From a virus, in IMG/VR virus record IMGVR_UViG_3300036791_000432, positions 1 through 26,415 of that record: a stretch of 26,415 nucleotides of DNA; one strand, 5' to 3'. Position numbers and translations under genes: made by a program. Position 1 is the stretch's first letter. Each line of letters starts with the position of its first letter. Shown one piece after another: positions 6,346 through 19,332 of this stretch. The notes beneath the pieces are model-generated. The model made no database searches, was not told the DNA's origin, and saw only the letters and a program-made list of their open reading frames with translations.

Positions 6346-7626
6346 GTGCTACCCCGGCAAACAAACGCAGCGGATGAGGTCGGCGGCGGCTTGGTGCTTC
6401 CCCACGGGCAGGGATGGGGCGAGCAGCGACACCATCGAGAGGCGCCATGCTCGCCCCACGCCTCCCGAACGATAGAACCTTCCGGGCTCGAGCACACCTT
6501 TGCGGGTGACTCTGTCACCGCTGGGAGCGTAAACTTCCTGGCTGACATAAGACCCGGCGCCGCGACGAGCGCGGCCCGGGCGTGGCACAGGAGGTCTCAG
6601 CTCCCATGCATCACGGATCTTACGACGCAACGACTCACGCTTGCCGACGTAGCTCGACTGCTGCGTGAAGCCGTGAAAGACAACTCCTACCGCGCCACCC
6701 CATTGGGGCTCGAGGTCGCGCGGTACATCAGATGGTTCCGCTCCGAGTGGGGCGCCTCGCCGGGCAGCATCGACAAGTACGAGCAGGCGCTCGCCAGGTT
6801 GGCGTTGTACTTCGCCGACCTCGAGCTCACAGACATGGAAGCCCCGGTCGGCGTGGAACGGCTGCGCGAGTGCCTCGACCATTTCTGGGGTGACCGCGAA
6901 CCGGCAACGAGGGCGCGTGTGATCGCGACGTGGCGGTCGTTCTTCGACTGGGCGATCCGTGAGAACCGCGGCATCATCTCGAACCCGGCCCGCGCGTTGC
7001 GGATGCCGAAACGCCGCGACACGAGGCGGGAGCCGTTCAACGAGTCGTTCGTCCGCAGGGCACTCGCGCAACGGTACGGGTGCGACCGCTGCGGCGTCGT
7101 CCTCGTCCTCTTGTACGGGGTTCGTCGCGCGGAGCTCGCCGGCGTCCAGTTCCGCCACTTCGACTTCGGCTACCGCCAACTCAGCCTGGTCGGGAAGGGC
7201 GGCAAGGTCAGGATCATCCCGATCGTCGAGGAAGAGTTCTGGGTCGACCTCTCATCATTGGAGCTCGAACAGGGCGGAGGCGACATCGCAGCCGACAAGT
7301 ACCTGATCTGCCCACGCCGACGCACAGGGATGAACACCTCGTTTTTCCATCAGAAGCAGATGCTCCCGAGGGCGATCGACAAGTGGTGGTACAACCGCCT
7401 CGAGGAAGTCGGGCTGGTGCAACCAGACGGCCGCAGGGATCACGGGATGCACCGGGGCCGCCACACCGTTGCCACCGAGATTTTGCGCGAGACCGGCAAC
7501 ATCGTCGCCGCCCAGGAACTCCTCGGGCACAGCTCACCGGAAACGACCCGGATGTACTACGCCGGGTTCGACACCCGCGATTTGGAGGCCGTCATCCGGG
7601 CCGCCCGCGAAGGCAGGGACGAATGA
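6346..7626 (+). CDS. int: Tyrosine-family site-specific integrase
   Basis: Integrates and excises the phage genome. Numbered from GTG 6346 (GGAGAGG five bases upstream), a SAM-like core-binding domain covers about 115-220 and the catalytic domain 230-415. The catalytic set is visible: Arg260 (YGVRRAEL), Lys284/287 (GKGGKVRIIPI), His369 and Arg372 (HRGRHT), His395 (LLGHSS) and nucleophile Tyr404 (TTRMYY). The first ~95 residues look unlike protein and have low GC3, so the true start may be further in; GTG 6673 is the next good in-frame codon but lies inside conserved-looking sequence. AGGAGG at 6589-6594 precedes an out-of-frame ATG (6606). No excisionase was recognised. Confidence 0.92.
   Translation: MLPRQTNAADEVGGGLVLPHGQGWGEQRHHREAPCSPHASRTIEPSGLEHTFAGDSVTAGSVNFLADIRPGAATSAARAWHRRSQLPCITDLTTQRLTLADVARLLREAVKDNSYRATPLGLEVARYIRWFRSEWGASPGSIDKYEQALARLALYFADLELTDMEAPVGVERLRECLDHFWGDREPATRARVIATWRSFFDWAIRENRGIISNPARALRMPKRRDTRREPFNESFVRRALAQRYGCDRCGVVLVLLYGVRRAELAGVQFRHFDFGYRQLSLVGKGGKVRIIPIVEEEFWVDLSSLELEQGGGDIAADKYLICPRRRTGMNTSFFHQKQMLPRAIDKWWYNRLEEVGLVQPDGRRDHGMHRGRHTVATEILRETGNIVAAQELLGHSSPETTRMYYAGFDTRDLEAVIRAAREGRDE
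6606..6668 (+). CDS. Possible 20-residue leader ORF inside the integrase 5' region
   Basis: AGGAGG at 6589-6594 is the strongest ribosome site near the integrase and is followed 11 bases later by ATG 6606. This opens a 20-codon frame (MHHGSYDATT and on) that ends with TGA at 6666-6668, four bases before the in-frame integrase GTG at 6673. It could be a coupled leader peptide, or the sign of a frameshift error in the assembly that splits the true integrase start. Short and unsupported by homology. Confidence 0.25.
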   Translation: MHHGSYDATTHACRRSSTAA

Positions 7627-7976
7627 CTGACTTGCTCGACTTTGATCTGTCGGCCGAGAAGACATGGGAGCAGCGATTGGTTCTTGCGAAAGCATCTCGG
7701 CGATGTGCTTGGTGTGGGGAGGCAGTCGAAAAGGGACGAACAACGTTCTGTTCGAAGGACCACAGCAGGCGATACCACGCGAAACGCATGCAGCGGATCA
7801 AGCGGGAACGGAATCTGCGTGACCGTGAGATGCGGGCGGAGATCACCGGTTACATCGAAGAGTTGCGAGAGGCGCGGCGCGAGTGGGGCAAGCTCGAGCG
7901 CTGGACGTTGCGCTGGGACTACAAAGACTGGCGGGGCCGCTGGTACGACGAGTTCAAATCGGATGGAGCGAAATGA
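7623..7976 (+). CDS. Zinc-ribbon-like basic protein, unknown function
   Basis: A 117-residue protein whose ATG overlaps the integrase stop (ATGA). Residues 28-47 form a CxxC-x11-CxxxH pattern (CAWCGEAV then FCSKDH), a treble-clef/zinc-ribbon-like site close to those found in HNH-adjacent and DNA-binding proteins. The rest is highly charged and helical (RMQRIKRERNLRDREMRAE), with a Trp-rich C-terminus (WTLRWDYKDWRGRWYDEF). Coupling to integrase suggests a recombination or directionality accessory role, but I do not recognise the family. No nuclease HNH residues are present. Confidence 0.7.
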   Translation: MTDLLDFDLSAEKTWEQRLVLAKASRRCAWCGEAVEKGRTTFCSKDHSRRYHAKRMQRIKRERNLRDREMRAEITGYIEELREARREWGKLERWTLRWDYKDWRGRWYDEFKSDGAK

Positions 7977-7988
7977 GTGTAATACAGC

Positions 7989-8006
7989 TTTCGCTCAACC
8001 ATGCGG
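7989..8006 (+). repeat. 18-bp exact repeat shared with the initiator-like gene
   Basis: TTTCGCTCAACCATGCGG occurs at 7989-8006 and again at 14811-14828 inside the replication-initiator-like gene, same orientation. In the gene it codes for SLNHA; here it sits at the start of the non-coding region. Confidence 0.9.
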
Positions 8007-8213
8007 CTGGCGGCGCTAGAAGACAGGAAAGCATAGTTGGGTGTCCCCAGCAACCCGATAACCAAGCCAAAGTCCCGGCCGGGAAAGGGCGCTGTGCAGC
8101 GATTACGGGACAGATCATCAGGCGGGTACGAGATAAGCCAGGGAGCCCAGCCTGGGGCCTGCACGTCACAGGTGACGTCACCGATCTCCCTGGGGCACAG
8201 CGCCCGACACTTC

Positions 8214-8286: not shown

Positions 8287-8517
8287 GTGAACGACTGGCT
8301 GCTAAGGCAGGTCTGCAAGCTAGCAGCCGAGCTCGCTGACGAGCTCCCCTCAGACACGAACGGCGTCCTCATCGATGTCGAGCTTCGAGTACTGATCGAC
8401 GAACCGAGTCTCTCCCAAGGGCCGTCATCTGTGACAGAGCACGTTCGTCGCGTCCGCTCGAACTTCGGCGAATGGAACGGCACCGACCGAATCACGAAGG
8501 AGCGATTCGGCTGGTGA
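8287..8517 (+). CDS. Small early protein, unknown function
   Basis: A 76-residue protein with GTG start at 8287, the first gene of the early operon. The N-terminal half is helical and acidic (LLRQVCKLAAELADELPSD), followed by a strand-like segment (GVLIDVELRVLIDEP). No motif is recognised. Its ribosome site would have to come from the GGGG inside the last TAGCGG repeat, so a factor bound at that repeat could affect translation. The stop overlaps the methyltransferase GTG (GTGA). Codon use is weaker than in its neighbours. Confidence 0.55.
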   Translation: MNDWLLRQVCKLAAELADELPSDTNGVLIDVELRVLIDEPSLSQGPSSVTEHVRRVRSNFGEWNGTDRITKERFGW

Positions 8518-9584
8518 ACGGCACGGCCCTCGCGATCCGCGACGAGACCGGGTACCTCGCGGCGTGCTCAGAGATCCGCGCGCTCGTCGAACGGATCGAA
8601 ACCGTCGGCGACGCCAAAGACCTCGCCGACCGGGCTCGTGCCGCTCAGGTGTGGGCCGAGCGTGCCGGCCTTGCACAGTCACAAGTGAATGTCGCGATCG
8701 TCGCGAAGCTCTGGGCCGAGCGACGTGCCGGTGAGCTCTTAGCGGTTCCGCCAGGAAACCGCTACACGGGCAAGACCCTCCCGGTCAATGTCAGCAAGGG
8801 TCAATCGCACCGCTGGCAGAAGCTCGCCGGGCTGCCGCTCGCTTTCTACGAGCAGGCGGTCGCCGACGCCGTGGCCGCTGGCCGCGTCACCCTCGAAGAG
8901 GTCTTCCGACGTGTCGATCGTCTCGCCCGCGAGGACGCGAACGCCGCCGCGGAGCACGAGCTCCTCGCCGATCTCGCCGAGCGTGGCGGACCGACGTGGT
9001 CGATCACGCACGCCGATTTGCGCGACTTCGACCCGGGTCCAGTTGACGCGATTGTCACCGACCCGCCTTACATCACCGAGGACGCGGTCGAGCTCTACGC
9101 CGAGCTCGGCCGTTTCGCCCTGCGCACGCTCAGACCGGGCGGCGCGCTGCTCACGATGGTCTCGCATCAGCTCCTCCTCGGGGCGCTCGACGCACTCGCG
9201 CAACCCGGGCTGGTCTACCGCTGGATGATCGCCTACCTCTACGGCTCACACGAATCGACGGTCGCGATGCATCACCGCGTCCAGGACTGTTGGAAGCCGG
9301 TCCTCGTCTACCACCACGGCGCGTGGTCGTCGACGACACCGATGTTCCCTGACGTCGTCTCGAGCGGGCGCCACCAACAGAAGGACGTGCACCCGTGGCA
9401 GCAGACGCTCGCCGGCACACGGCAGCTCGTCCGTGCCGTGGCGCGCCCAGGTGACATTGTGTGCGACCCATTCACCGGCGCGGGCACAACAACTGTCGCG
9501 GCGCTCGCCGAGTCATGCCACTTTGTCGGCTGCGACATCGACGCGAACACGGTCGAGGTCGCACGCAATCGGATAGCCGCATGA
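8514..9584 (+). CDS. DNA methyltransferase (DPPY type, beta order) with N-terminal accessory domain
   Basis: A 356-residue S-adenosylmethionine-dependent amino-methyltransferase, modifying adenine N6 or cytosine N4. The catalytic motif TDPPY is at 182-186 and the SAM motif CDPFTGAGTT at 317-326; catalytic before SAM motif is the beta-class order. Residues 1-145 are a helical domain (ADRARAAQVWAERAG; SKGQSHRWQKLAGLP) seen in many phage methylases. GTG 8514 is preferred over an ATG at 8472 because it overlaps the previous stop and has GGAG upstream. No partner endonuclease is nearby, so protection against host restriction is the likely role. Confidence 0.88.
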   Translation: MNGTALAIRDETGYLAACSEIRALVERIETVGDAKDLADRARAAQVWAERAGLAQSQVNVAIVAKLWAERRAGELLAVPPGNRYTGKTLPVNVSKGQSHRWQKLAGLPLAFYEQAVADAVAAGRVTLEEVFRRVDRLAREDANAAAEHELLADLAERGGPTWSITHADLRDFDPGPVDAIVTDPPYITEDAVELYAELGRFALRTLRPGGALLTMVSHQLLLGALDALAQPGLVYRWMIAYLYGSHESTVAMHHRVQDCWKPVLVYHHGAWSSTTPMFPDVVSSGRHQQKDVHPWQQTLAGTRQLVRAVARPGDIVCDPFTGAGTTTVAALAESCHFVGCDIDANTVEVARNRIAA

Positions 9585-12777: not shown

Positions 12778-13243
12778 GCTCGCCCTGATCCAGCAGGGCG
12801 TCGAGGAGAACCCCGAGATCGTGATGCCCCTGACGGGCGTCCTTGTCGACCTGCGCAACCCGGCCGAGGTCGCCGACGCGCTCGACCAACTCACCGACAT
12901 CAGGCACAGGCTGAAGAATCTCACCGACACCCTCACCGACGCTCTCCGGTTGGAGGCGCACAAGCAGGGAACCAAGACGCTGCACCTCGAAGGCCTCGAC
13001 GCCGTCATCTCGGGCGGCGAACGTGTCGAGTACGACGGGCAACGCTTGCAGTCGGAGTTGATCCGGGCTGGGCTCCCGATCGACCGCGTCAACGAGGCTG
13101 TCGCCGAGATCGTCACCTACAAGCCCGACGGCCGCGTCCTCAAGCAGCTAGCCGGCGCGAACCACGACTACCGGGCGATCATCGACAGCTGCCGCCAGGT
13201 TGTGCCGGCGCCGTGGCGCGCAACGGTGAAACGCGTCAGGTGA
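12770..13243 (+). CDS. Conserved-type phage protein of the recombination module, unknown function
   Basis: A 157-residue protein starting at ATG 12770, overlapping the upstream stop. A helical N-terminal part (VADALDQLTDIRHRLKNLTDT) could be a coiled coil. The rest includes GTKTLHLEGLDAVISGGERV and EIVTYKPDGRVLKQLAGANH, a pattern I recall from uncharacterised actinophage proteins near recombination genes. The position after RecT-like and before a methyltransferase suggests a DNA transaction role. No catalytic motif seen. Confidence 0.65.
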   Translation: MSELALIQQGVEENPEIVMPLTGVLVDLRNPAEVADALDQLTDIRHRLKNLTDTLTDALRLEAHKQGTKTLHLEGLDAVISGGERVEYDGQRLQSELIRAGLPIDRVNEAVAEIVTYKPDGRVLKQLAGANHDYRAIIDSCRQVVPAPWRATVKRVR

Positions 13244-14427
13244 ACTCGGTAGTCCAAGATCGCGACTTCACGCTGTACCTGGGCGATGCGCTCGAGGTGC
13301 TCCGCGAGCTACCCGCCGGCAGCGTGGACTGTTGCGTCACGAGTCCGCCATACTGGGGGCTCAGGGACTACGGCACCGGCCAATGGGACGGCGGCGACTT
13401 CCACTGCGACCACTTGGCAACGGCTCGCCACAAGGGGCGTGACGTCTGTGGATATTGCGGCGCGATGCGGGTCGACCGCCAGCTCGGCCTCGAAGCCACC
13501 CCGCAGGAGTACGTCGCCAACATGGTCGCGGTGTTCCGCGAGATACGCCGCGTGCTGGCCGACCACGGCACCTGCTGGGTCAACCTCGGCGACAGCTACG
13601 CGGGCGGTGGTCGTGGCGGCCACGGCGGACTAGAGAATGTGCCGCGCTGGGGTAAGGCATCCCCGCCGCAAGGTGACGCCGAGTACCCGGAGTCGTTTCG
13701 AGGGATGAGAGCGAAAGATTTGTGCGGGATCCCGTGGCGCGTCGCGTTCGCGCTCCAAACCGACGGCTGGTATTTGCGCAGCGACATCATCTGGGCGAAA
13801 CCCAACCCGATGCCCGAGTCGGTCACGGACAGGCCCACGAAGGCGCACGAATATGTCTTTCTTCTGACGAAGAAAGCGCGGTACTGGTTCGACCAGGAAG
13901 CCGTGCGGGAACTGGCCGAGTACGGGCGTCGTATACAGGGCGCGTTTCGAAGCGGATCCCAGAACGGCGACGGCCATCGCTCAGTTGAAGGCAGCGTTAC
14001 TGGCAGCGATCCCGCTGCTGGCCGCAACGTCCGTTCTGTGTGGGAGATCGCGACCCAGCCGTACGCGGAGGCGCATTTCGCGACGTTCCCGAAGGAGCTC
14101 GCCCGCCGTTGCATCCTCGCCGGCTGCCCCGAGTGGGTGTGCCGGATGTGCGGGAAACCACGCGAACGGATCGTGGAACGCACCGGAGGAACCACGGGTA
14201 GCGGCATGGATACCTACGTTGTTTCGACGCTCGGCTGGTCGGATTGCGGCCACCACGACTACCGTCCCGGAATCGTGCTCGACCCGTTCATGGGCTCAGG
14301 CACAACCGCGCTCGTCGCCCGCGAGCAGGCCCGGCACGCGATCGGGATCGAGCTCAACCCCGAGTACGCGCGCCTTGCCGCGCGCCGGTTGCAGCAGCTG
14401 TCATTGCTCGCCAAGGGCGTGCGGTGA
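13240..14427 (+). CDS. DNA methyltransferase (TSPPYWGLRDYG type)
   Basis: A 395-residue amino-methyltransferase of the N4-cytosine/N6-adenine beta class. The catalytic motif TSPPYWG is at 34-40 and the SAM motif LDPFMGSGTT at 347-356. A Cys/His insertion (HCDH at 55-58, CGYC at 70-73) is probably a zinc finger, and CRMCGKP near 305 may add a second site. QLGLEATPQEYV (81-92) is typical of phage members. GTG 13240 overlaps the previous stop (GTGA) and is preferred over GTG 13213. No cognate nuclease is present, so it is probably an orphan enzyme for anti-restriction or regulation. Confidence 0.9.
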   Translation: MNSVVQDRDFTLYLGDALEVLRELPAGSVDCCVTSPPYWGLRDYGTGQWDGGDFHCDHLATARHKGRDVCGYCGAMRVDRQLGLEATPQEYVANMVAVFREIRRVLADHGTCWVNLGDSYAGGGRGGHGGLENVPRWGKASPPQGDAEYPESFRGMRAKDLCGIPWRVAFALQTDGWYLRSDIIWAKPNPMPESVTDRPTKAHEYVFLLTKKARYWFDQEAVRELAEYGRRIQGAFRSGSQNGDGHRSVEGSVTGSDPAAGRNVRSVWEIATQPYAEAHFATFPKELARRCILAGCPEWVCRMCGKPRERIVERTGGTTGSGMDTYVVSTLGWSDCGHHDYRPGIVLDPFMGSGTTALVAREQARHAIGIELNPEYARLAARRLQQLSLLAKGVR

Positions 14428-15073: not shown

Positions 15074-15312
15074 GCCGCTTCATCGTTCAGGAAGTCCACG
15101 GGTGGACGATCGGGCTCGGCACCAACAACACCGGCCAGAACAAACGCCCCGACCCCGTCTCGTTCGTCGTGCTCGACTCCGGGTGCTGCTACCAGCGGAT
15201 GGCCGAGTTCCCGCCCGGCGACGGCCGCAACGTCGGCTACAACCCGATCCGCCGCCGGCGTGCGGCAGCCGAGGCGTTCGCGGCCGAACTGAACGCGACA
15301 CACCGACCATGA
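15070..15312 (+). CDS. Hypothetical protein
   Basis: An 80-residue protein whose TTG start at 15070 overlaps the previous stop (TTGA). The first part is strand-rich (FIVQEVHGWTIGLG) and the C-terminus is a basic helix (NPIRRRRAAAEAFAAELNATH). A CC pair occurs at 39-40. No recognised family; coupled to the resolvase-like gene by a 4-base overlap. Confidence 0.6.
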   Translation: MSRFIVQEVHGWTIGLGTNNTGQNKRPDPVSFVVLDSGCCYQRMAEFPPGDGRNVGYNPIRRRRAAAEAFAAELNATHRP

Positions 15313-15632
15313 CCGCGTGGAAAGACCTTGAGCGCCGAGTCTGTGCCGAGATGGGCGGCAGACGCGGCGGACCAGTCGGCGCCGCAGTCAGCGACTGCGT
15401 CGGTGTGCCGTTCAGCGTGGAGGTCAAGCGCTGCAAAAGCCAGTCCGTGCAGACACGGTTCATCGAGCAAGCCAAGGCGCAATCCAAGCGCGAAGGGAAA
15501 CCCTGGCTCGTCGTCGTCGGCGGTCACAACGACCGCAACCCCACCGCCACGCTCGACTGGCGCCTGCTCGTCGATATCTGCCGGAAAGCCGGCGTCATCG
15601 CCGCGCCGCTCGAAGCCAAGGACGAGAAGTGA
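15309..15632 (+). CDS. PD-(D/E)XK nuclease, Holliday-junction-resolvase-like
   Basis: A 107-residue protein with the layout of small Hjc-type or phage PD-(D/E)XK resolvases: WKDLERRVCAEMGGRRGGP (4-22), Asp29, then the core Glu38-Val-Lys40 (FSVEVKRC), a helix with Gln (FIEQAKAQSK) and a buried strand (WLVVVGG). Asp29, Glu38 and Lys40 would bind the metal. It could resolve recombination or replication intermediates made with the RecT-like protein, or debranch DNA before packaging. Start ATG 15309 overlaps the upstream stop. Confidence 0.72.
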   Translation: MTAWKDLERRVCAEMGGRRGGPVGAAVSDCVGVPFSVEVKRCKSQSVQTRFIEQAKAQSKREGKPWLVVVGGHNDRNPTATLDWRLLVDICRKAGVIAAPLEAKDEK

Positions 15633-15842: not shown

Positions 15843-16040
15843 ATGGACCCCGAAGACCTAGGCACGCTCGCCAACATGATCGAGCTCGGCACGCAGTACA
15901 TCGCCGAGCAAGACGAACCCGAAGACCAACCCAACATCGCGCCCATGAAAGCGATCCTCGACCAGATCGCCGCACTGGTGCCCGTCGAGCTCGCCGAACC
16001 GGAGCCTTCCGACGAGCCCGAAGACGAAGGAGGGGAATGA
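15843..16040 (+). CDS. Small acidic protein, unknown function
   Basis: A 65-residue very acidic protein (ending EPEPSDEPEDEGGE) with a helical centre (MKAILDQIAALVPVELAE). The ATG at 15843 follows GGAG. It starts a short three-gene group in front of the terminase. Acidic DNA-mimic or nucleoid-antagonist activity can be imagined but nothing in the sequence proves it. Confidence 0.55.
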   Translation: MDPEDLGTLANMIELGTQYIAEQDEPEDQPNIAPMKAILDQIAALVPVELAEPEPSDEPEDEGGE

Positions 16041-16123
16041 ACGAAACACCGACACCAGAGCCGACCGAGCCGACACCAACACCCGTCCCCGAACCAGACC
16101 AACCCGACGACGACGACGAATGA
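16037..16123 (+). CDS. 28-residue Pro/Glu/Thr-rich acidic peptide
   Basis: ATG 16037 overlaps the upstream stop and follows AGGAGGGGA, a strong ribosome site. The product is a low-complexity run of Thr-Pro-Glu units ending DDDDE. The stop overlaps the next ATG. The strong ribosome site argues that it is translated; function unknown. Confidence 0.45.
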   Translation: MNETPTPEPTEPTPTPVPEPDQPDDDDE

Positions 16124-16215
16124 GGATCGGCACCGTGACCATCACCGTCGGCGAGATCGCCTGGGTGGTCATAGCCATCTTCGTCGTGCTCGCGTACTTC
16201 AACGGCTGGGGCTGA
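16120..16215 (+). CDS. 31-residue membrane peptide
   Basis: ATG 16120 overlaps the upstream stop (ATGA). Residues 7-27 (TITVGEIAWVVIAIFVVLAYF) are a membrane span, ending NGWG. It is the last gene before the terminase. It resembles small holin- or antiholin-like peptides only in shape. Confidence 0.45.
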   Translation: MRIGTVTITVGEIAWVVIAIFVVLAYFNGWG

Positions 16216-16232: not shown

Positions 16233-16255
16233 CCAAAAGGGGGCCCGTTTTTTGG
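16233..16255 (+). terminator. Weak terminator-like hairpin upstream of terminase
   Basis: CCAAAA (16233-16238) and TTTTGG (16250-16255) surround GGGGGCCCG, with six T's at 16248-16253. The stem is short and AT-rich, so termination is only possible. The 103-base gap 16216-16318 otherwise holds two TTGACC motifs that could be -35 elements of the late operon. Confidence 0.3.
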
Positions 16256-16318
16256 TGTGACCACCCGTTTGACCCCCGCCAAGTCCAGAAATCTCTCTCT
16301 TCGAGGTGAGTCGAGCCG

Positions 16319-18076
16319 ATGACGACCAGGTTGGCGCGAGCGGGGCTGAGTTCAGCGGAGCGCGGCTACGGTCCGGAGCATGTAGCGACCAGGCGCCGGT
16401 TGGAGGCGTTCGTGCTCGCCGGGAACGTTCGTTGCGCGCGGTGTGGTGAGTTGATCGTTCCGGGTGAGCTGTGGGATCTGGGCCACGATGACGGTGACCG
16501 GTCGCGGTACAGCGGGCCGGAGCACGCGAGGTGTAACCGGGCTACTGCGAGCAGGCGGAGGTGGGTTGCGCCGCCGCCGCCGGAGCCCGAGCCGGAGCGG
16601 CCCGGGTTAGCCTCGTCGGATGAGTGTTGGCGGGTCCCGTGGCTCGAGCCGTTGCTTGACGTGCCGGCGGACGCGGTGTGGCCGCGGTTCATGTCGGCTC
16701 CGCATCCTCGAGCGGTTGGTTCGCTCGGTGAGGAGTTCGCGAGGTGGGCGGAGGCGCGTGACGGGCGGCCGTTGAGGTGGTGGCAGCGGCTGGTCGCGAC
16801 GCGTCTACTGGAAGTAGACGCGGATCGGCGGCTGGTGTGGGAGACGCTGCTTCTGACGATGGCACGGCAACTCGGGAAGTCGTGGCTGCTCCGCGAGCTT
16901 TTGTTGTGGCGGATCGAGCAGAGCGAGTGGTTCGGTGAGCCCCAGGATGTGCTCCACACCGGCAAGGATCTGCAGGTTTGCACCGAGGTGATGCGGCCGG
17001 CGATGGCGTGGGCGGAGGGCGACTCGCGGTACAAGGTCGGGCGCGCGAACGGCGCGGTGTTCATCGAGCTTGTGGAGGCACGGTCGCGGTGGCTGCTCCG
17101 GGCGAAGACCGCGGTGTACGGCTACTCGGTCTCGGTTGGTGCCGTCGACGAGGCGTGGAAGGTTCGCCCGGAGATCGTCGACGAGGGGCTCACGCCGACG
17201 ATGGTGGAGCGGGAGCAGCCGCAGCTGTGGTTGGTCTCGACGGCGCACCGTGAGGCGACCGCGCTGATGTTGGCGCGCAGGAAGGCCGCGTTGGTGCAGC
17301 TCGAGTCGGGCGAGGGCGATCTGTTGATCGAGTGGTCGACGCCGAAGGCCTCGGCGCTCGACGACATCGACGGGTGGCGGCAGGCTTCACCGCACTGGAC
17401 GCCGCAGCGGGAGCGGTTGATCCGGCGGCAGCTCGAGCAGGTGCAGTCCGGCGAGTCGGAGGTGTACGAGGACGAGACCGACCCGGTCGAGGCGTTCCGC
17501 GCGCAGTGGCTCAATCAGTGGCCCGACCGGACGGTTCCGACGGGGGTCGGTGAGCTGCTGCTTCCGGCCGGCCTGTGGGCGCATCTCGAGCAGTCGGGGT
17601 TGCTGGGTGACGGCGCGTTGTACGTCGCGGTCGAGGACCATTTCGGGAACGGCGCCGCGATCGCTGCAGCGGCCGAGCTTGGCGACGGCCGGTTGGAGGT
17701 CGACGGCTGGTTGTGCCCCGACTGGGACTCGGCAATGATGGATGTGCAACGCCTGGGTGCGTTACGCGAGGTCAGGGTGCTGCTCGTGGGGGCGTCCTTG
17801 CTGTCGCGGGTCCCGGAGGGAACGTCGCCGGCCCCGGACCCGGCCGGTGGTGCCGAGACCCGTCTGGGTCTTCCGCTCCTCCGGGACCTCGCGGCAGGTG
17901 GGATGCTCGCCCACGAAGACACCGCCGAGCTGGATCAGGCCGTCACAGGGGCATTGGTGAAGGAGCTCTCGACGGGGTTGCAGCTCGTCCCGTCCGGCTC
18001 GACGCATCTCGTGAAGGCGCTCTGCTGGGCTGTGAATGCGGCGCACGACTCGGAGCCGTTACCGGTGATCTTCTGA
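16319..18076 (+). CDS. terL: Terminase large subunit with N-terminal HNH domain (fusion)
   Basis: A 585-residue packaging motor. Residues 20-80 are an HNH-type unit: CARC (39-42), LWDLGHDD (51-58), GPEHARCNRA (66-75). A Pro/Glu linker (84-96) leads to the ATPase: adaptor region RWWQRLVATRLLE, Walker A ARQLGKS (182-188), Walker B GAVDE (274-278) and LVSTAH (305-310) as coupling motif. The C-terminal part is the RNase H-like nuclease region (LYVAVEDHFGNGA). No small terminase or separate HNH gene is present. AGGTGAG precedes ATG 16319. The gene also contains a perfect DNA hairpin at 16800-16822. Confidence 0.92.
   Translation: MTTRLARAGLSSAERGYGPEHVATRRRLEAFVLAGNVRCARCGELIVPGELWDLGHDDGDRSRYSGPEHARCNRATASRRRWVAPPPPEPEPERPGLASSDECWRVPWLEPLLDVPADAVWPRFMSAPHPRAVGSLGEEFARWAEARDGRPLRWWQRLVATRLLEVDADRRLVWETLLLTMARQLGKSWLLRELLLWRIEQSEWFGEPQDVLHTGKDLQVCTEVMRPAMAWAEGDSRYKVGRANGAVFIELVEARSRWLLRAKTAVYGYSVSVGAVDEAWKVRPEIVDEGLTPTMVEREQPQLWLVSTAHREATALMLARRKAALVQLESGEGDLLIEWSTPKASALDDIDGWRQASPHWTPQRERLIRRQLEQVQSGESEVYEDETDPVEAFRAQWLNQWPDRTVPTGVGELLLPAGLWAHLEQSGLLGDGALYVAVEDHFGNGAAIAAAAELGDGRLEVDGWLCPDWDSAMMDVQRLGALREVRVLLVGASLLSRVPEGTSPAPDPAGGAETRLGLPLLRDLAAGGMLAHEDTAELDQAVTGALVKELSTGLQLVPSGSTHLVKALCWAVNAAHDSEPLPVIF
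16800..16822. repeat. Perfect 10-bp hairpin inside terL
   Basis: CGCGTCTACT (16800-16809) and AGTAGACGCG (16813-16822) with a 3-base loop GGA. It falls between the HNH and Walker A coding segments. It encodes TRLLEVDAD, so the protein does not demand such symmetry. Confidence 0.85.
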
Positions 18077-19332
18077 TGGCGTTCTGGACGCGCTCGATCC
18101 GCCCGGGCGACCCGGAGGTCCCGAACACGAACCCGCCCGGGGTGCCGCCGGCGAGCGTGGGCCCGCCCGACGCGAACCCGGGTGACCCGATCGGCGTCGA
18201 GCTGGTCGGTGACGATCCGGGGTGGGCGCCACCACCGAGGATTCTCCCTTCGGCGTGGTCGGGGTGGCCGTCGGATTGGGCGACGCCGAACTGGGGGTCG
18301 ATGGACGTGCAGGTCCTCACCGACACCGCCTGGATGTGCTTGGACCGGAACGCGAGCGTGTTGTCGGCGATGCCGCCCTATCTGGTGAACGCGTCGCCGA
18401 CGCTGAACGCGGATTGGCTCCGGAACCCCGATCCGGCGTTCTACGCGTCGTGGGACGAGTTCGCGCACCAGCTGTTCTGGGATTTCCAGATGGGCGAGGC
18501 GTTCGTGCTCGCGACGTCCTATTACTCGACAGGATGGCCGGCCCGGTTCCATGTGGTGCCGCCGTGGTTCGTGAGTATCGATATGCGCGACGGGCTCCGG
18601 AACTACGAGATCGGCGGGCTCGACGTGACCGAGGACATCCTCCACGTCCGCTACCGCTCCGTGACCGGGTACCCGCACGGCTCGGGCCCGTTGGACGCCG
18701 GGAGCATGCGGATCATCGCCGACCAGATGCTGACGCAGTACGGCACGAAGATCGCGACGACGGGGGTCCCGGTCGGGGTGCTGCAGCACCCGGGGAACAT
18801 CAACGCCGCGCAGGCCGCGCAGCTGCAAGCGCAATGGGTGCAGGCCAGGTCGAGCTCGATCGGTGAGCCGGCCGTCCTCGCCGGCGGGATCACGTGGACG
18901 CCAACGCAGCTGAACCCGTCCGAGCTCGGCCTCCTCGACCTCCTCCGGTTCAACCAATCCAGGATCGCGGAGCTGCTCGGGATCCCACCGGTCATCGTCG
19001 GGCTCCCGGCGGGCGGTGACCCGATGACGTACCGCAACGTGGCGATGCTGTACGACCAGCATTGGCGCTCCGGGCTCCGCCCGAAAGCGGCGAAAGTGAT
19101 GGCCGCGCTCTCCGGCTGGGCGCTACCCAGGGCGACGACCGTCGAGGTGAACAGCGACGACTACGTCCAGGGAGAACCGCTCGAGCGGGCGCAGGCCTAC
19201 CAGATCCTCGCGTCGATCCTTGACCCCGTGACGGGGCAGCCGGCGATGACCGTGCAGGAGATCCGCACCGCGGAGCGTCTGGACACGAGCACACCAACCG
19301 ACACACCAACAGGGGCAGGAGTGCTGGCATGA
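18076..19332 (+). CDS. Portal protein (HK97-type)
   Basis: A 418-residue dodecameric head vertex protein through which DNA enters. The start ATG 18076 overlaps the terminase stop. After a Pro-rich N-terminus the typical portal features follow: a strand/helix core (DVQVLTDTAWMCLDRNASV), a membrane-side region (FHVVPPWFVSIDMRDG), the loop YRSVTGYPHGSGPL and the C-terminal AELLGIPPVIVGLP...YRNVAMLYDQHWRSGLRP, characteristic of HK97-like portals. Gene order terminase-portal-protease-capsid agrees. The coding sequence stops in a Thr/Pro-rich tail. Confidence 0.92.
   Translation: MAFWTRSIRPGDPEVPNTNPPGVPPASVGPPDANPGDPIGVELVGDDPGWAPPPRILPSAWSGWPSDWATPNWGSMDVQVLTDTAWMCLDRNASVLSAMPPYLVNASPTLNADWLRNPDPAFYASWDEFAHQLFWDFQMGEAFVLATSYYSTGWPARFHVVPPWFVSIDMRDGLRNYEIGGLDVTEDILHVRYRSVTGYPHGSGPLDAGSMRIIADQMLTQYGTKIATTGVPVGVLQHPGNINAAQAAQLQAQWVQARSSSIGEPAVLAGGITWTPTQLNPSELGLLDLLRFNQSRIAELLGIPPVIVGLPAGGDPMTYRNVAMLYDQHWRSGLRPKAAKVMAALSGWALPRATTVEVNSDDYVQGEPLERAQAYQILASILDPVTGQPAMTVQEIRTAERLDTSTPTDTPTGAGVLA

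Follow-up and report, generated by a model that had tools for sequence, protein, structure and literature searches.

In phage HK97, cleavage of cos is triggered by the HNH endonuclease gp74, and the catalytic acids of the terminase large subunit (TerL) are D302, D388 and D471 (PMC9410871). The overhang of HK97 may arise because TerL and gp74 each cut once, or because TerL makes both cuts (PMC11331095), and the source of the staggered cuts made by HK97-type terminases, i.e. which nuclease acts on which strand, is debated. In the isolate phages compared in this study the gene order is HNH, cos, gene 1 (the position of the small subunit, TerS) and TerL, in agreement with the original prediction, which described HNH and terminase as separate neighbouring genes in many cos phages. 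Here I describe a viral contig 26,415 bases long, referred to as the window, where HNH and TerL form a single chain.

The HNH-TerL fusion gene and its relatives

The fusion gene (16319-18076, + strand) is one open reading frame of 585 amino acids, which starts with an ATG with the ribosome-binding site AGGTGAG. An internal start at M125 was dismissed, as no ribosome-binding site is present in front of it. The portal gene lies directly 3' of the fusion (18076-19332, + strand; PHROG 12, E 1e-37) and is accompanied downstream by a protease and the major head protein, while RecT, DNA methylases, an integrase and an endolysin are encoded upstream; judged from these neighbours, the window is a fragment of a temperate HK97-like siphovirus. 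Two DNA methyltransferase genes (8472-9584 and 13213-14427; PHROG 67, the second N6_N4_Mtase) are found in this small genome, and the reading frame at 15309-15632, near cos, weakly resembles resolvases of the RusA-like or Holliday junction kind (E 0.004).

The HNH domain occupies residues 11-81 (16349-16561, + strand) and matches PHROG 1808, 'HNH endonuclease' (E 2.9e-12); Pfam HNH (PF01844) has no match in the window, and no Pfam family matched the full 585-residue chain. Its zinc ligands are C39, C42, H69 and C72, with H56 as the catalytic residue and N73 following the last ligand. Among 120 relatives C39 and H56 are invariant, C42, C72 and N73 are present in 119, 117 and 115, respectively, and residue 69 is His in 71 and Cys in 48, as expected of a zinc ligand. 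The motifs CARC, WDLGHDD and GPEHARCN of the HNH/Cys4 unit that had been claimed are present, but the zinc site of the window is C2HC, and Cys4 is confined to the other half of the clade. In the AlphaFold2 model of the full chain the HNH part forms a helix-strand-strand-helix arrangement (DSSP) with a local pLDDT of about 90; the Foldseek and VIA lists for the full chain are filled by the TerL part and say nothing about the HNH fold, and the sequence alignment with the HNH structure 4h9d is weak (E 0.1). The PHROG 1808 profile matched in 11 of 11 records, exactly once in each and inside the frame of about 590 residues, so that an HNH of this type does not occur as a free protein in these records.

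A linker defined by the predicted structure (residues 82-121; 16562-16681, + strand), of which residues 82-85 have low confidence in the model, leads to the ATPase domain (residues 122-405; 16682-17533, + strand; PHROG 9, 'terminase large subunit', E 4.6e-21). Walker A (RQLGKS, 183-188), Walker B (DE, 277-278) and motif III (STA, 307-309) are invariant or almost so across the 120 relatives. It is followed by the RNase H-like domain (residues 410-580; 17546-18058, + strand), with E439-D440, G491 and H563 at its apparently altered catalytic positions. Structure prediction agrees with the assignment of this part as a TerL: the AlphaFold2 model, built with 120 sequences, has a mean pLDDT of 92 and a pTM of 0.73, and HK97 TerL is the top solved structure in Foldseek (E 3.7e-20). 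In VIA, HK97 TerL aligns over residues 134-575 with Z 25.1 (410 residues aligned) at an rmsd of 15, probably because the two domains are placed differently. The ATPase alone reaches Z 19-20 at 2.2-2.9 Å, with the P74-26 ATPase among the matches, and residues 410-580 reach Z 12-15 against TerL nuclease domains.

At the catalytic positions E439 and D440 are each found in 118 of the 120 relatives, position 491 (motif II) is Gly in 118, with no acid there, and position 563 (motif III) carries His in 105 relatives and Asp in 4; the motif III Asp is retained in loci L149-L151. In the sequence alignment E439 corresponds to the first catalytic Asp of TerL, and H563 to HK97 D471 after manual alignment of the final helix, the equivalence of motifs II and III to HK97 being one of aligned sequences and not of superposed coordinates. 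Residues were mapped through the TerL of phage Pumancara, a full-length profile match to the fusion (probability 98.8%, E 1.2e-16), as hhalign with the single HK97 TerL sequence spanned just 126 columns. The alignments point to an RNase H-like domain that has kept its fold and lost the standard catalytic acids. The original prediction of a full ATPase and nuclease therefore holds for the ATPase, whose motifs are conserved, but not for the nuclease, which has the fold while the usual acids are, by alignment, altered. As far as can be seen by eye, motif I is Tyr in the TerL of the free-HNH phages Redi and Eyre (L169 and L163), the Brujita TerL (L011) is without motifs I and II, and the TerL nucleases of Hum25 and Cornie look intact, so loss of TerL acids is frequent, though not universal, beside an HNH.

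Six full-length fusions emerged from an initial scan of IMG/VR, and two profile scans returned 301 and 231 relatives, of which the best 80 of each were used; the second scan, with TerL-only peptide patterns, again returned fused chains. In a profile search HNH and TerL stood on one frame in 136 of 145 loci, which bears out the claim of a single chain and shows that the same fusion is found in other genomes. The nine exceptions are six truncated contigs, one free HNH and two Nocardioides prophages, of which one (L150) has a different HNH subtype in the same frame as TerL, while the other (L152, Nocardioides alcanivorans, approximately 7500-8200) has HNH and TerL in adjacent frames, the change of frame falling in the linker, and may represent a pair of split genes or else a frameshift. 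Bacterial relatives were found at 35-39% identity in one Acidimicrobiia MAG and three Nocardioides genomes, and the nearest isolate phage TerLs are 24-27% identical and unfused. Given the retention of C39, C42 and H56 together with this shared frame, the fusion is real and does not stem from chance or assembly, and its carriers are small soil phages that form a large, uncultured group.

Within this group the HNH part has been exchanged. HNH types A and B are 21.8% identical, whereas their TerL parts are 61.0% identical, equal to the value within type A. On the TerL tree, which was built quickly and has long branches in its outgroup rows, the distribution of the HNH types requires 7 changes, of which well-supported branches force at least 4, and a tree that unites type B in one clade is rejected (p-AU 0.001). 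On the sequence evidence, the HNH module has been swapped more than once on the same TerL lineage.

The cos site and the order of genes around it

The cos core GACCCCCGCCAA (16271-16282, + strand) was located from contig ends and isolate termini, and a 3' overhang of about 8-12 nt is predicted here. The first base of the predicted left genome terminus, GTCCAGAAATCTCTCTC, is 16283 (+ strand), which places the left end 36 nt upstream of the fusion gene; contig L013, with a TerL 89% identical to that of the window, begins exactly at the equivalent base, and the genomes of Redi and Brujita begin with GTCAGG. A conserved T6 run upstream of cos (16248-16253, + strand) belongs to an element that is terminator-like or flanks cos, and a conserved pyrimidine tract lies just inside the left end (16292-16302, + strand). 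Contigs that span the site read T6, then TGACCCCCG, then GTCAGA, then TTTTCCCCC, and the ends of the isolate genomes are CTGACCCCGCCGCCTTGG and GTCAGGAATCTCTCCC in Redi and TGACCCCACCCCTCA and GTCAGGAG in Brujita. The window has one match to the cos pattern and zero are expected by chance, for a pattern that was made after the site had been seen.

Distinct viral contigs end at most 150 nt upstream of HNH codon 11 in 68 of 123 cases, and at 250-1000 nt upstream in 8 of 123, so that the near zone is about 42 times denser. A GTCAG-like start is present in 17 of 74 edge contigs (background 4.6%; one of the 17 is adapter sequence), and a purine tail followed by a CC start in ten of the 74 (background 1%). 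Soil viromes at JGI have been prepared with the Accel-NGS 1S kit, which adds low-complexity tails (PMC6612421), and the purine-tail starts fit such tails on an intact 3' overhang beginning in CCCC; the overhang length of 8-12 nt would be implied by this class. The pile-up of contig ends and its match to the isolate termini show fixed cohesive ends beside HNH-TerL, i.e. a cos-packaging phage, and speak for cohesive ends in the question that had been raised about the genome ends. Library residue at a contig start, either the TTCCGATCT adapter or a purine tail (L086, 1-9), coincides with the genome end, and is also seen at the starts of L017, L047, L062, L076, L082, L118, L124 and L138. Such library tails may serve to map 3' overhangs in viromes.

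With respect to cos, the window has the order cos, then HNH-TerL, whereas in actinophages the gene of a free HNH homologue (50-58% identical) comes last, or nearly so, before cos. From this order the HNH has crossed cos, and now stands in the place of TerS. The absence of a TerS upstream, as originally claimed, is in line with the three small reading frames at 15843-16215, which are an acidic one of 65 residues that is not TerS-like (15843-16040, + strand), an acidic peptide of 28 residues, and a membrane peptide of 31 residues ending in NGWG (16120-16215, + strand). The latter is the last gene before cos, and is conserved in 7 of the 21 relatives whose upstream flanks are long.

Some annotations of isolate genes at these positions deserve mention. 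The gp1 proteins of Brujita (L011, 62-541) and Babsiella (L153) are annotated as 'minor tail protein', yet stand at the TerS position; this label is likely a misannotation, as Brujita gp1 matches the TerS family PHROG 1897. Eyre gp73 (L012, 2569-3246), the right-end HNH, is a longer chain whose C-terminal end is formed by the HNH, and is called 'terminase small subunit' in RefSeq and 'polynucleotide kinase' in GenBank.

The cos core may also follow the HNH type. A GACYC core is found in 16 of 22 type A loci versus 3 of 19 type B loci (Fisher p 4e-4, under a rule set after looking); however, relatedness leaves 2-3 independent pairs, a number without power, so the association is not established, and I regard it as a lead suggested by the sequences and not as a result.

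Proposed division of labour in the fused terminase

The explanation that I consider probable is that HNH-TerL is the whole motor of a cos terminase, in which nicking of cos falls to the HNH, in cis, and the RNase H-like domain is left with weak activity or a structural role. The N-terminal HNH would be a packaging-type HNH endonuclease, of the kind encoded by a separate gene beside cos in other actinophages and in HK97. Tethered to the motor, it would nick cos in the GACCCC-GTC region on at least one of the two strands, and this nicking would yield the 3' cohesive ends; the ATPase domain would translocate the DNA, and the RNase H-like domain would probably hold DNA or cut weakly. The altered catalytic acids of TerL make such a split of labour likely, with the HNH as the nicking enzyme and the ATPase as the motor. 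I infer from these data that the HNH is the cutter, which strand it cuts, and that TerS is not needed. The original idea of a packaging fusion is strengthened by the conserved fusion, the free relatives beside cos, the lack of a TerS at the usual place and the cohesive ends, and the chain may also recognise cos by itself, in the stead of TerS; a 'full' TerL nuclease, however, is not what the alignments show. Replacement of the TerL nuclease by the HNH is not a necessity, since HK97, Hum25 and Cornie have an HNH together with an intact one. The almost invariant E439-D440 also counts against this explanation, as Glu can bind metal, and so does the motif III Asp of L149-L151.

The chief alternative overlaps with this explanation, in which the HNH makes at least one nick. 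Two nucleases could share the work, the HNH nicking one strand and the RNase H-like domain, through E439/D440, the other, to give the 3' overhang, in which case the fusion would just fix the geometry of the two nucleases. The retention of both residues, each in 118 of 120, fits such sharing, as does the option proposed for HK97 of TerL on one strand and gp74 on the other (PMC11331095); a clade without the motif II acid and with mostly His at motif III does not, and I would put this alternative a little short of an even chance.

Somewhat more doubtful is that a divergent TerS encoded elsewhere selects cos, and that the HNH has no role in recognition. TerS could have escaped notice, because the PHROGs TerS models recognised 4 of 7 isolate gene-1 proteins as TerS. 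However, there is no room for a TerS between cos and the fusion, as is seen directly; PHROGs found no TerS among the window reading frames tested; Pfam Terminase_2 had 0 matches in the window and 10 relatives, and Terminase_4 had 0 matches in the 10 relatives; and no upstream gene is shared by every one of the 21 long loci, the most frequent, RecT, being present in 14. The opposite extreme would be a single-protein cos terminase, in which the HNH is the sole cos endonuclease and also chooses the site, the RNase H-like domain is dead, no TerS exists, and cos specificity is changed by HNH swaps on a constant motor; I consider this unlikely.

It is very improbable that the contig ends, instead of marking cos, arose where assembly stopped at a GC hairpin or a terminator. 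A GC-rich palindrome does accompany the T6 run about 30 nt upstream of the site, but the contig ends fall beyond the hairpin and on the same base as the isolate termini, the library tails mark physical DNA ends, and just 6 contig breaks lie inside the reading frame. Finally, an HNH that landed before terL as a homing endonuclease or intein remnant is scarcely credible, for although homing HNH genes are often found near terminases (PMC10448857), this HNH is always N-terminal and in frame with its catalytic residues retained over about 120 divergent chains, its free homologues are packaging-type HNHs beside cos, there is one copy per record, and the same terL without HNH occurs among the relatives only in truncated contigs and the frame-split L152. 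An intein or homing element was also dismissed on the single frame and the lack of a free copy of this HNH type.

Comparison with known systems

No description of an HNH-TerL fusion was found in the literature searched, of which coverage was partial. The same architecture is probably already present in UniProt without comment, as the second and third ranking matches among viral models, A0A6J5RK67 (602 residues) and A0A6J5QUV0 (586 residues) from uncultured Caudovirales phages, are named 'HNHc domain containing protein'; both match the fusion structurally over the full length at 17-24% identity. Some proteins of uncultured phages that carry an 'HNHc protein' annotation may thus be terminases in reality. 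The tethering of two nucleases, with altered TerL acids, TerS gone from its usual place and the HNH swapped, makes for a compact system in which single mutations would be informative, and the fusion could help to decide which nuclease cuts which strand.

Among isolates, the Arthrobacter phage Pumancara (Korravirus) has one of the TerLs closest to the fusion, but this TerL is unfused, a separate gene 1 stands at the TerS position, and the right-end HNH is of the PHROG 338 type. The mycobacteriophages Redi and Brujita have a free PHROG 1808 HNH as their last gene, about 50-58% identical to that of the fusion, and cos cores near-identical to that of the window (in Redi GACCCC ... GTCAGGAATCTCTCCC); they differ in that the HNH lies across cos, a separate gene 1 occupies the TerS position, and TerL is clearly different. 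HK97, with gp74 and gp1/gp2, resembles the window in having an HNH beside cos, a TerL of the same fold and the core TGACCGCC near the genome end, like the cos of the window; its 3' overhang is reported in the literature, while that of the window is predicted. In contrast to the window, separate HNH and TerS genes flank cos in HK97 (HNH-cos-TerS-TerL), and D302, D388 and D471 are intact. As far as the literature searched shows, the fusion thus combines known parts in a real, widespread and apparently undescribed arrangement, a variant of the HNH-assisted cos terminase.
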